Shown here: in pieces, positions 7,192-10,732 of the stretch
Layout: the number at the start of each line of letters is the position of its first letter
How positions within the stretch are numbered: position 1 is the first letter of the stretch
Assembly: GCA_021162935.1 (NCBI GenBank)
Contig: JAGGXR010000091.1
Location: forward strand, 1-35,334
Origin: Deltaproteobacteria bacterium
GTDB taxonomy: Bacteria > Myxococcota_A > Polyangia > HGW-17 > SLPX01
Length of the DNA stretch: 35,334 nt
Reading direction: 5' to 3'
The notes under the pieces: model-generated
Told to the model about the DNA's origin: nothing
The model's database searches: none
The model's input: the letters and a program-made list of their open reading frames with translations, nothing else
Program-made: the position numbers and the translations under genes

Positions 7192-7740
7192 TTATGGGAT
7201 GGGAACGAGCTTGAACTTGATGACACAGTTCGGGTCGCCCTTGAGCATGCAGACGTCATGGGTGACCTCGATGCTTTCGCCATAGTGCTCGGCAAGGCCT
7301 TTTGCGATGCCCACGGCCACACCACACATTTTCCGGGGCGACCTGTAGTCGATGGTGACCTCGTCGGGTGCGGTCCGGATGCAGGATAGGCTCGGCGGTT
7401 GTGCTTTCGGGTCCTTTGCCTTGACGGCGGTGTGGATGCTCCGTTCGGCGTTTTCCAAGACGTCGAGAGTCTTCCATTCGGTTCGGATGAGCATGCCGAA
7501 CAATTTGTAGAGGTCGGGAACGAGGTACTTCCCGAAGTCTTCCAAGATGGCGGGTGCCGGATTGCCCGTGATATTGGAGGCGGTGGTCACCAGGGCCAGA
7601 GCGTCTTCATCCGGATAGGCCTGGGTGGGCATGAAGACGCGCCCCGGCATGCCTGCTCCCTTGAGCAACGCATCCCACGCGTCGTTGCCAAGGTTTGTCT
7701 CCACGTATTGCTGCAGTTCCTGGAAAATGATGCCATGCAT
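7192..7740 (-). CDS. hnoX: Stand-alone H-NOX (haem-nitric oxide/oxygen binding) protein
   Basis: This 182-residue protein spans one complete H-NOX domain: MHGIIFQELQQYVE at the N-terminus, SYPDED-like AYPDEDALALV, then NAERSIHTAVK with His103 as predicted proximal haem ligand. DYRSPRKMC holds the Tyr132-x-Ser134-x-Arg136 haem-propionate signature. The position equivalent to the O2-stabilising Tyr140 of the Thermoanaerobacter protein is Val141, so the haem is predicted to bind NO rather than O2. It is cytosolic, with no membrane segment. ATG 7740 is preceded by GGAGGG at 7745-7750; longer in-frame starts would run into the upstream gene. It is the last gene of the stressosome operon, 10 nt after a GHKL ATPase. 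H-NOX proteins usually act by binding a partner kinase or cyclase encoded nearby. Confidence 0.93.
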   Translation of the reverse strand: MHGIIFQELQQYVETNLGNDAWDALLKGAGMPGRVFMPTQAYPDEDALALVTTASNITGNPAPAILEDFGKYLVPDLYKLFGMLIRTEWKTLDVLENAERSIHTAVKAKDPKAQPPSLSCIRTAPDEVTIDYRSPRKMCGVAVGIAKGLAEHYGESIEVTHDVCMLKGDPNCVIKFKLVPIP

Positions 7741-7750
7741 TGCACCCTCC

Positions 7751-8218
7751 TCATGAAAACGGGTTGTCGTTGTTGAGCCACTTATGTCCCACGATCTTTG
7801 TGCCGCCCTGGGGGCGAAGTTCGATGATGATTTCCGCCAGAAGCCGGCGGGCCGCGCCGAGTCCGGAGCCAAGCCCCCTCCTGGGAACGACCGGATCCTG
7901 ATCGGAAAGATACATGCCTTCCGAGTAGCCGTCCACCACTGCGGCCTGCGGGTCGTCGATGCCCGGTCCGTCGTCTTCGACCACGAGTTCGAGACCGATT
8001 TTCGGAGTCAGGATGCGTCGGACGGTCAAGCCACCATGACCGGCGAACTTGAGGACATTCGAGACGAGTTCACTCACCGCGATGCCGATGCTCCACACGG
8101 CATTGTCGTCGAATCCCATGTTCTTGGCAAACCGCATGGCTTCATGGCTACACCAGGTCACATCGACGTCCCCAGCGATTTTCATGAACTGGTAATGCTC
8201 CATTTTTGCTGCTACCAC
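7751..8218 (-). CDS. GHKL-type serine/threonine kinase (RsbT/RsbW-like ATPase)
   Basis: This 155-residue protein has the single HATPase fold of anti-sigma/switch kinases. The N-box is ISVSELVSN-like (IAVSELVSNVLKFAG), G1 is EDDGPGIDD and G2 is RRGLGSGLGAARRL. It ends with GGTKIVGHKWL, matching the terminal strand of RsbT-like proteins. The start is GTG 8218, because GGAGG at 8228-8232 lies 9 nt upstream; ATG 8203 is much too far from it. It is the fifth gene of the operon and a second ATPase besides the RsbT homologue. It may be the output kinase, a second switch kinase, or the direct partner of the H-NOX encoded 10 nt downstream. No RsbV-like antagonist or sigma factor was seen in the window. 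Confidence 0.88.
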   Translation of the reverse strand: MVAAKMEHYQFMKIAGDVDVTWCSHEAMRFAKNMGFDDNAVWSIGIAVSELVSNVLKFAGHGGLTVRRILTPKIGLELVVEDDGPGIDDPQAAVVDGYSEGMYLSDQDPVVPRRGLGSGLGAARRLLAEIIIELRPQGGTKIVGHKWLNNDNPFS

Positions 8219-8249
8219 GAAATTTGCCTCCGATTCGACATTCCCTGGT

Positions 8250-8810
8250 TCAGCATTTGACTACGATACAAGTGGCATCGTCGTACTGCTTACCGTGTTC
8301 GCGCAAGATAGCTTCGGCCATCTTGTCCAATTCCAAGTTACGATACCGTTTTGCATCGAATCGGCTGGAAATTCCGTCGGAGAAAAAAACGAGCAGGTCT
8401 CCTTCGGACAATATGAAGTCGAATTTGAGGACTTTTCCCAGGCGTCTGCCCAGCACACCTGGCCTGGACACCGGTCGGATCGGGGCCTTGCTGAGTGCCA
8501 CCAGATCGATGTTGCCCACGCCAACGTACTGCATGGCACGGCTTTCCGTGTCGATGCGCAAGATCGCTCCAACGGCCCCCCTGGTGGTCCGAAGCTGGGC
8601 GTGCACGCCCTTGATGATGTCGGTTAAGGCATCATCACGATGCTCGGCGACAAACGTGCAAAATGCATGGCCCGCTTCTGCGGCCATGGGTCCGTGTCCC
8701 AAACCATCGGCAAGAGCAATGGTGGTTTTGGATCCGGAAGTGAGGACCACGAAGGCATCTCCGCACACGCGTTCTCCAACCTTCGGCCTTTGTGCGGACC
8801 CCACGTTCAT
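8250..8810 (-). CDS. rsbX: PP2C/SpoIIE-family serine phosphatase, RsbX-like
   Basis: RsbX dephosphorylates RsbR and RsbS to reset the stressosome. This 186-residue protein matches that small PP2C/SpoIIE type without extra domains. It has GERVCGDAFVV and ALADGLGHGPMAAEAG, containing the metal-binding Asp-Gly motif, then GAVGAILRID, YVGVGNID and GDLLVFFSDGISSRF, and ends DDATCIVVK. Length is close to the usual ~200 aa. Its ATG overlaps the stop of the rsbT homologue by 4 nt (ATGA), implying translational coupling. Confidence 0.9.
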   Translation of the reverse strand: MNVGSAQRPKVGERVCGDAFVVLTSGSKTTIALADGLGHGPMAAEAGHAFCTFVAEHRDDALTDIIKGVHAQLRTTRGAVGAILRIDTESRAMQYVGVGNIDLVALSKAPIRPVSRPGVLGRRLGKVLKFDFILSEGDLLVFFSDGISSRFDAKRYRNLELDKMAEAILREHGKQYDDATCIVVKC

Positions 8811-9463
8811 CGTCTGGCATCCAGATATTTCCGGACACGTATCTTGGTGCCTTCTCCGAGTGCACTTGAAACCTCGAATTCGTCCATCATCTTTTTCACC
8901 ACGAGTAAACCCTGTCCCAGGCCGGTTTTGGATTTGTATCGTCCGCTCAAAACTTCTTCGATGAACGGAATCCCCGGGCCGTCATCCACCGCGAACACTT
9001 CGATACCGCCTCGTTCACCCTTCATGAGGCTGAGCACAATGTTCCCCGTTTTGGCATACTGATGGATGTTTCGCGCCAATTCGGAGATGACCGTGGCCAC
9101 GCCGATTCGGACGGAAATTGGGAAACCGATTTCTTCGCACATGTCTCGTCCGGTGGCCCTGGCGACCACGATGTCGCGCTCCTCTTTGATGGTCACTACC
9201 GTGGAGTCCACGGATGAACCGGCCATCGCTTCCGTCAGGAGGACATCGAGATCCTTACAGCACTTGGCGTAATCCCTTGAGTTTCGCACGAAGAGTTTGC
9301 ACGACTGCTTGAGCACACGAACGAGACGAGAGCCGTCCCCCATGCGGATGTTGTCCGGATCCACGCCGCTGCGCAGCACCGCCGCTTCCATGATGGGATC
9401 GGTCAGGATCGGACTCATGTACTGCTTCAGGATCGTTGCTGCTTTCGCCGTGATTTCAGACAT
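8807..9463 (-). CDS. rsbT: RsbT-type switch kinase with an extra N-terminal domain
   Basis: The C-terminal ~130 residues are a clear RsbT: RDIVVARATGRDMCEEIGFP, N-box VISELARNIHQYAK, G1 VDDGPGIPFIEEV, G2 KTGLGQGLLVVKKMMDEF, and EGTKIRVRKYL at the end. RsbT phosphorylates RsbR and RsbS and is released from the stressosome to activate a downstream partner. RsbT is normally ~130 aa; this protein has 218, because about 85 residues precede the kinase (KQYMSPILTDPIMEAAVL...GDGSRLVRVLKQSCKLFV). I do not assign that extension to a named family; it looks helical and could be a docking or output domain. The gene overlaps rsbS by 8 nt and rsbX by 4 nt. Confidence 0.9.
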   Translation of the reverse strand: MSEITAKAATILKQYMSPILTDPIMEAAVLRSGVDPDNIRMGDGSRLVRVLKQSCKLFVRNSRDYAKCCKDLDVLLTEAMAGSSVDSTVVTIKEERDIVVARATGRDMCEEIGFPISVRIGVATVISELARNIHQYAKTGNIVLSLMKGERGGIEVFAVDDGPGIPFIEEVLSGRYKSKTGLGQGLLVVKKMMDEFEVSSALGEGTKIRVRKYLDARR

Positions 9464-9860
9464 TGGCCTTGTTTTGCGACGTGCCTTCGGGGCCCGGTAC
9501 GTGTTTGCTTCTCAAGTAGTCCAGTGCTGCTTCAAGATTGAGGGCCGTGGTGATACCCTCTGGACTCAGGTCCATCTCCACGAGGGTGATGGCGATCATC
9601 GGATCGAGACTGCAGAGCACGGTTTCCACGCCCATGAGGCGGGACACCAAACCGATGTCACGGATTGCCTTTGTGATATAGCTGTCCATGACGTCCATGC
9701 CGGATAGATCGATGATGAGACCGGTGGCATCGGTCCGGTCGATCTCCATGGTAATGTCTTGCTTGAGCTGACGAACGAGTTGGTCTGTAAGCGCCATCTG
9801 GATCGACACGATGAGCGTGTCATACAACTTGATGATCGGAATTTTGAAAACGTCGAGCAT
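9456..9860 (-). CDS. rsbS: Stressosome scaffold STAS protein RsbS
   Basis: This 134-residue single STAS domain begins FKIPIIKLYDTLIVSIQMAL, as RsbS proteins do. Ser60 in DLSGMDVMDSYITKAI corresponds to the serine phosphorylated by RsbT. The rest (LMGVETVLCSLDPMIAITLVEM) completes the fold. RsbS and RsbR co-assemble into the large stressosome that sequesters RsbT. The gene lies 80 nt downstream of rsbR, with GAGAGG about 14 nt and a closer AAGG just before ATG 9860. A ~15-residue tail after LDYLRSKH is not needed for the fold. Confidence 0.93.
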   Translation of the reverse strand: MLDVFKIPIIKLYDTLIVSIQMALTDQLVRQLKQDITMEIDRTDATGLIIDLSGMDVMDSYITKAIRDIGLVSRLMGVETVLCSLDPMIAITLVEMDLSPEGITTALNLEAALDYLRSKHVPGPEGTSQNKANV

Positions 9861-9940
9861 GGCCTTGGTTGCCTCTCATGCTTGGTTGGCCCTCGATGGC
9901 CCCAGTGATTCGCGACGACAGAGATGCTGCCCAGATGGTT

Positions 9941-10732
9941 TCAGACGCTGCTTTCACCCTTTCGCCTCAGACACTCGCGCAGTCCCGCATGGAGGTTGCG
10001 CAACGTGGTGATGGAAGACAGGTCCACACCAAGATCGGCCAATGTTTGGGCCACCGCCGGCCGAATTCCGGTCAGCATGCAGGTGGCCCCCAACAACTCG
10101 GCAGCCTTGATGAGTTTGAGGAAGTGATCGGCCGTTTTCGTGTCCACGACCTCCACTCCTGTGATATCCAGGATGACGAAACGGGATTGCTTGTCCACGA
10201 TTTCAGAAAGGAGCCGTTCCATGATTTCCATGGAGCGCCGCGTGTCCACGATACCGATCACGGGAAGGACCAACACGCTGTCCCACACCTGAAGAATCGG
10301 GGTGGACAGTTCCTGGATCACGATTTGCTGGTGCTGAATCATTTCGAGTTGCTGGGACAACTCGTCGAGTGTTTCATTCAAGGTCTCGCCGAGGCCCACG
10401 ATGAGTTCATTGTCCGATTGCAGCACCGTGTCGCTCACCCTTGCATGGAGCCTGCCGTGCTTGACCTCACGCAACGCCTTGATGCACTCCGACACACCCA
10501 GGTTCATGTTGATGGCCATGCGATTGTACTCGTCCACCCGCTGGTCCAACAGGGCTGATACCTCTCCGACTTGCTTGGTCAGCCCTTCCATTGTCGGGTC
10601 ATCGAATTCGATGTCGGGACGGACCGCGAGCCTTCCCTTGAGGATCGCGTCCAAAGACTGCACGAGCCGTTCGAGCTTGTCCACGTCGACCTGGATGCGT
10701 TTTGCCTTCTTGCCGCTTTTTGATGGAGCCAT
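9941..10732 (-). CDS. rsbR: RsbR-type STAS protein with HAMP-like N-terminal half and no recognisable sensor domain
   Basis: The C-terminal STAS domain (about residues 140-255) matches RsbR: ELSTPILQVWDSVLVLPVIG, LDITGVEVVDTKTADHFLKL, GIRPAVAQTLADLGVDL. Thr198 (VVDT) and Thr230 (AQT) are candidate phosphorylation sites. Canonical RsbR has a non-haem globin-like sensor at the N-terminus. Here a Lys-rich start is followed by two HAMP-like helical stretches (LDAILKGRLAVRPDI... and IKALREVKHGRLHARVSD), with no globin, PAS or membrane segment. ATG 10732 (MAPSKSGKK) was chosen; 22 more residues are open upstream but hydrophobic and atypical. It is the first gene of the operon. Confidence 0.88.
   Translation of the reverse strand: MAPSKSGKKAKRIQVDVDKLERLVQSLDAILKGRLAVRPDIEFDDPTMEGLTKQVGEVSALLDQRVDEYNRMAINMNLGVSECIKALREVKHGRLHARVSDTVLQSDNELIVGLGETLNETLDELSQQLEMIQHQQIVIQELSTPILQVWDSVLVLPVIGIVDTRRSMEIMERLLSEIVDKQSRFVILDITGVEVVDTKTADHFLKLIKAAELLGATCMLTGIRPAVAQTLADLGVDLSSITTLRNLHAGLRECLRRKGESSV

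Follow-up and report, generated by a model that had tools for sequence, protein, structure and literature searches.

The 35,334-nucleotide contig JAGGXR010000091.1 of a Deltaproteobacteria bacterium (assembly GCA_021162935.1; Myxococcota_A, Polyangia), analyzed at its full length and hereafter called the window, carries on its minus strand an operon in which the stressosome genes rsbR, rsbS, rsbT and rsbX are followed by the genes for a second RsbT-like GHKL ATPase (HATP2) and a stand-alone H-NOX protein. We propose, with a probability of about 0.7, that the H-NOX protein is the sensor of this stressosome and acts in trans: it would dock on the turret formed by RsbR and alter the activity or the release of the switch kinase RsbT. 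This is the best reading because the H-NOX gene lies in the stressosome operon of three species, H-NOX and rsbR genes are paired in a second H-NOX lineage, and RsbR itself lacks a sensor domain. The idea of a preliminary description of this DNA, that a separate protein supplies the sensor, stands in that form, as the best reading.

The stressosome operon

The preliminary description had reported a six-gene minus-strand rsbRSTX-ATPase-H-NOX operon with short gaps and overlaps. All six genes were confirmed and their coordinates were corrected as follows.

10732-9941, minus strand: rsbR, ATG start, 263 amino acids; STAS domain, E 1.5e-16
9860-9456, minus strand: rsbS, single STAS domain, E 1.4e-10 in the family search
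9463-8807, minus strand: rsbT switch kinase, 218 amino acids; N-terminal four-helix domain and GHKL kinase domain
8810-8250, minus strand: rsbX, SpoIIE/PP2C-type phosphatase, E 6.2e-10
8218-7751, minus strand: HATP2, second RsbT/RsbW-like GHKL ATPase, GTG start, 155 amino acids; HATPase_c
7740-7192, minus strand: H-NOX, stand-alone HNOB protein, ATG start, 182 amino acids; HNOB E 1.9e-36
7741-7753, minus strand: ribosome-binding site of the H-NOX gene, GAGGAGG, situated at the HATP2 stop codon

The consecutive distances from rsbR to the H-NOX gene are +80, -8, -4, +31 and +10 bases, and no terminator-like sites were found on the minus strand within the operon. An overlap between the H-NOX and HATP2 genes was rejected as an artefact of the open reading frame caller, produced by a 226-amino acid frame that opens at a chance TTG. 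The two genes do not overlap because the true start is the ATG at 7740 behind the GAGGAGG.

The residues on which a working stressosome depends for accepting phosphate and for binding ATP and metal are in place. RsbR T164 and T198 align with the phospho-acceptor threonines T175 and T209 of Listeria, and RsbS S60 aligns with the phospho-acceptor serine S56; the best match of RsbS in the PDB is the RsbS of B. subtilis (E 1.7e-25). The two GHKL proteins, RsbT and HATP2, matched HATPase_c with E values of 7.1e-9 and 6e-9. The N-box and G-boxes are intact in HATP2, a recurrent fifth gene of the stressosome module in the class, and in RsbT (SELARN, which includes N132, DDGPG and TGLGQG), for which a fold search returned SpoIIAB and RsbW. 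The additional N-terminal domain of RsbT (about residues 1-85, with four predicted helices within 3-81) is common across the class; it matched no Pfam family and received no assignment in the fold search, which was dominated by the ATPase part. RsbX retains the metal-site aspartates D18, D35, D145 and D177/D178 in the motifs CGDA, ADGLGHG, SDG and DD. No RsbU is linked to the operon and the RsbU-RsbV-RsbW-SigB output is not part of it, sigma factors not having been searched for. Elsewhere in the genome, SpoIIE was matched by a membrane phosphatase of the HAMP type, by a Ser/Thr phosphatase and, below the cut-off, by one further protein. None of them is RsbU-like, and no output gene linked to the window operon was found.

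RsbR without a sensory head

RsbR is composed of a HAMP-like helical N-terminus (residues 17-143) and a STAS domain. In the predicted model (mean predicted local distance difference test score, pLDDT, 80.9) the helices span residues 17-31, 46-91 and 109-143, with a spacing that appears to follow the rhythm of HAMP modules. Profile searches detected no sensor family in the N-terminus at E values up to 1. From residue 130 onward the STAS domain can be aligned with PDB structures of the stressosomes of Listeria and Vibrio, no PDB match was found before that residue, and a fold search of the N-terminus gave no assignment, the matches being dominated by the STAS domain. An N-terminal sensory domain, a usual but not strictly defining feature of stressosomes, is thus missing from the window RsbR, as it is from some other RsbR-like proteins of the class. 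RsbR and RsbS are each encoded once in the genome, which is 97% complete, as is full-length H-NOX; with a single RsbR, no other, sensory RsbR was found. A second HNOB match in the same genome is partial, covering only the C-terminal half in a 101-amino acid frame (L002 1501-1707; C154 13905-14111).

Conservation of the operon in three species

When 84,980 species genomes were scanned with short peptide patterns, a procedure that detects close relatives only, two loci were returned, L013 (JAFCZJ010000248) and L014 (JALVPF010000038), both with all six genes arranged as in the window. Both are in metagenome-assembled genomes of Myxococcota, and their flanking genes are unlike those of the window and unlike each other's. 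The genome search for a conserved rsbRSTX-HATPase-H-NOX neighbourhood that the preliminary description had proposed therefore succeeded, and the adjacency is not peculiar to one genome. Compared with the window proteins, H-NOX is the most conserved of the six (74 and 72% identity in L013 and L014), followed by RsbR (66-70%), RsbS (63-66%), RsbX (57-63%), HATP2 (54-57%) and RsbT (43-49%). Its non-synonymous divergence is also the lowest of the six (dN 0.18-0.21), with synonymous sites near saturation. The H-NOX protein is under strong purifying selection at the same position in three diverged genomes.

A second H-NOX lineage beside rsbR

The search for H-NOX proteins covered 318 class genomes and 379 phylum genomes, and the gene neighbourhoods of about 104 H-NOX loci were inspected. 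H-NOX genes occur in 72 of the 318 class genomes, and five of the about 104 loci are rsb-linked: the window, L013, L014, L110 and L151. In L110 (genome G215) an H-NOX gene is followed on the same strand by a short, sensor-less rsbR, and the pair is convergent with rsbS-rsbT-rsbX-HATP2; in L151 (genome G114) the H-NOX gene is again followed by a sensor-less rsbR, which is cut by the end of the contig. These two H-NOX proteins form a sister pair, distant from the group of the window. The five linked H-NOX proteins were joined in none of 200 bootstrap trees, and their phylogeny makes two independent H-NOX/rsbR pairings likely; these are unproven because the approximately unbiased (AU) test did not formally reject a single clade of the five (p 0.07). 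A profile search found no further close members of the second lineage. The linkage of H-NOX to rsb genes is rare but recurrent.

Two other observations were made at these loci. In genome G293 (L118 13719-14824) an H-NOX gene is followed by one for a more divergent STAS protein of 196 amino acids; its STAS domain has no VDT threonine motif, and the two genes make up a degenerate pair of the H-NOX/RsbR-like kind. None of the open frames at the about 104 loci encodes both domains, so a direct fusion of H-NOX to STAS was not found.

The abundance of H-NOX in the class, where nearly all other copies are not linked to rsb genes, could suggest that its co-transcription is accidental and that the gene is unconnected with the stressosome. 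The same position in three diverged genomes under strong purifying selection, the second lineage paired with rsbR and the lack of a sensor in RsbR speak against this, and we consider it very improbable; chance adjacency was rejected on the basis of the three genomes and the second lineage.

The H-NOX protein and its candidate ligand

The HNOB profile is covered in full by the H-NOX protein (1-163/163), which also matched H-NOX structures in the PDB. The V4R profile also matched the C-terminus, weakly for the window protein and with a score above the cut-off for the L110 protein; Pfam places the H-NOX and V4R folds in one group. In the alignment with Nostoc H-NOX, the proximal haem histidine H103, P115 and the motif Y132-x-S134-x-R136 are present, and H103 and YxSxR are invariant in the H-NOX proteins of the window, L013 and L014. 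Residues C139, H161, C164 and C172 match the three-cysteine, one-histidine zinc motif of the Vibrio and Caulobacter proteins (motif as in PMC12329717).

The distal tyrosine of O2-binding H-NOX proteins appears to be absent, since the sequence and alignment place no tyrosine in residues 133-152 (R136-K-M-C-G-V). The missing residue suggests nitric oxide (NO) rather than O2 as the ligand (PMC8738867). In Caulobacter, however, the kinase that partners H-NOX is switched only by cysteine oxidation and not by NO (PMC12329717), which makes oxidation at the zinc-type site a real alternative. In this variant of the sensor-in-trans proposal, whose probability overlaps with that of the proposal itself, the H-NOX protein would likewise act on the stressosome, but it would sense redox state through its thiol/zinc site instead of NO. 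The zinc-type motif agrees with this variant, while the haem ligand H103 and the YxSxR motif, invariant in all three species, and the L014 protein, in which glutamate replaces the histidine of the zinc motif, disagree with it; on balance we regard it as somewhat unlikely.

Proposed mechanism

In known stressosomes the N-terminal heads of RsbR form turrets, and the signal is sent when RsbT leaves the core (PMC9237128). By analogy, the STAS domains of RsbR and RsbS would build the core, on which RsbT would be held and would phosphorylate RsbR at T164 and T198 and RsbS at S60; RsbX would reset the phosphorylated sites. From the genes we infer haem binding, the ligand, the docking site, the direction of the switch and the output. 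A haem-loaded H-NOX protein would take the place of the missing head and bind, on the outer turret, the HAMP-like helices, which would transmit the signal, as H-NOX proteins do with kinases or cyclases elsewhere. Binding of NO, or oxidation of the zinc-type cysteines, would change the docking and, through it, the kinase activity or the release of RsbT. The signal is probably passed on by HATP2, which would act as a kinase in partner switching or as an anti-sigma-type protein.

Several observations weigh against the H-NOX protein being the sensor of the stressosome. The rsb linkage is rare, a common origin of the five linked proteins was not rejected, and the zinc-motif histidine is lost in L014. 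The HAMP profile matches the window RsbR at E 0.063, below the cut-off, while a comparable short RsbR in L119 has a HAMP match at 1.8e-4. The H-NOX gene also lies directly behind the HATP2 gene, so that its product could act on HATP2 instead. According to this last possibility, H-NOX regulates HATP2 and not RsbR, as H-NOX proteins inhibit histidine kinases, and the stressosome has another input of its own. The two genes are directly adjacent in all three operons, and known H-NOX partners include histidine kinases that bear a HATPase domain (PMC8738867). HATP2, however, has no dimerisation/phospho-histidine domain, many modules with HATP2 have no H-NOX, the neighbour of the H-NOX gene in L110 and L151 is rsbR, and the absence of a sensor from the window RsbR also counts against HATP2 as the target. 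We consider regulation of HATP2 unlikely and prefer RsbR as the partner of H-NOX.

Stressosome modules elsewhere in the class

Searches with RsbR showed that the core rsbR-rsbS-rsbT-rsbX-HATP2 is present without H-NOX in many families of the class. In these modules RsbR is usually fused to a sensor: PAS in L104, GAF in L105, and an XylR_N and V4R pair in L114. The window RsbR has nothing but helices at this place, a contrast that speaks for a sensor in trans. The XylR_N and V4R domains are also encoded by a stand-alone gene directly upstream of a GAF-type rsbR (L105 6599-7285, minus strand; L108 4645-5337, plus strand). In genomes G002 and G005, which belong to the same taxonomic order as the window, a [NiFe]-hydrogenase set consisting of FlpD/MvhD, the small subunit, the NiFe large subunit and an HdrA-like protein is located between rsbX and a similar short, sensor-less rsbR.

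L221 6641-8443 and L102 2-6783 (G002), L103 3-7261 (G005): [NiFe]-hydrogenase/HdrA-like loci

This arrangement is possibly a hydrogen- or redox-linked stressosome. A hydrogenase context was also observed in G049 (L104 499-7503), where the PAS-RsbR module is preceded by a gene for an HdrA-like flavoprotein and followed by a HypB-like one. In G051 (L112 326-2050 and 4932-5879) HATP2 is followed by an FHA-SpoIIE phosphatase, and the short rsbR is preceded by genes for two paralogous small proteins unassigned to any family. These are candidate output and input parts, respectively, and the position of the FHA-SpoIIE protein behind HATP2 suggests a partner-switching phosphatase branch. Tentatively, the stressosomes of Myxococcota may be plug-in systems, in which an RsbR made of HAMP-like helices and a STAS domain would accept separate sensors: H-NOX for NO or redox state, XylR_N-V4R for small molecules and, in the taxonomic order of the window, a [NiFe]-hydrogenase/HdrA-like cluster for H2 or electron flow.

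Relation to known systems

The nearest precedents are the O2-sensing haem-globin RsbR of Vibrio and the H-NOX/kinase pairs. The RsbRSTX modules of Vibrio vulnificus and V. brasiliensis are also Gram-negative; rsbX follows rsbT immediately, the operon lacks a SigB module and the sensor is a haem protein, a role that is presumed here (PMC9237108, PMC4976288). They differ in that their haem globin, which senses O2, forms the N-terminal part of RsbR, whereas the window has a separate H-NOX, a headless RsbR and an extra GHKL ATPase after rsbX. The RsbR-RsbS-RsbT systems of B. subtilis and Listeria share the STAS, kinase and phosphatase parts and the phospho-acceptor sites (T175/T209 and S56 in Listeria; PMC7705745) with the window. 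The window operon, in contrast, does not include RsbU-RsbV-RsbW-SigB, its RsbT has the extra four-helix domain and its presumed sensor would be a trans-acting protein. Systems of the H-NOX/HnoK and H-NOX/diguanylate cyclase types resemble the window in having a stand-alone H-NOX gene in the operon of the partner, the haem histidine, no distal tyrosine and a zinc-type motif (PMC8738867, PMC12329717). The partner of the window protein would be a stressosome instead of a histidine kinase, a GGDEF/EAL enzyme or a chemoreceptor.

We found no report in the open-access literature of an H-NOX protein coupled to a stressosome, to RsbR or to STAS, and among the listed open-access matches on stressosomes and nitric oxide none concerned control of a stressosome by H-NOX. 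The view that no H-NOX-controlled stressosome has been described thus holds for that literature.

What stressosomes sense is mostly unknown, one reason being that their sensors are integral to particles of megadalton size. In the window operon the presumed sensor stands apart from the particle, as a soluble haem protein from a family that has been studied well. It can be added or omitted and its ligand state can be chosen, so that signal transfer into a stressosome would become directly measurable. If the proposal is correct, stressosomes would be a new class of partner for H-NOX proteins, and NO or redox sensing would be brought to the stressosome. Sensors encoded apart from RsbR may be widespread among the stressosomes of these bacteria.

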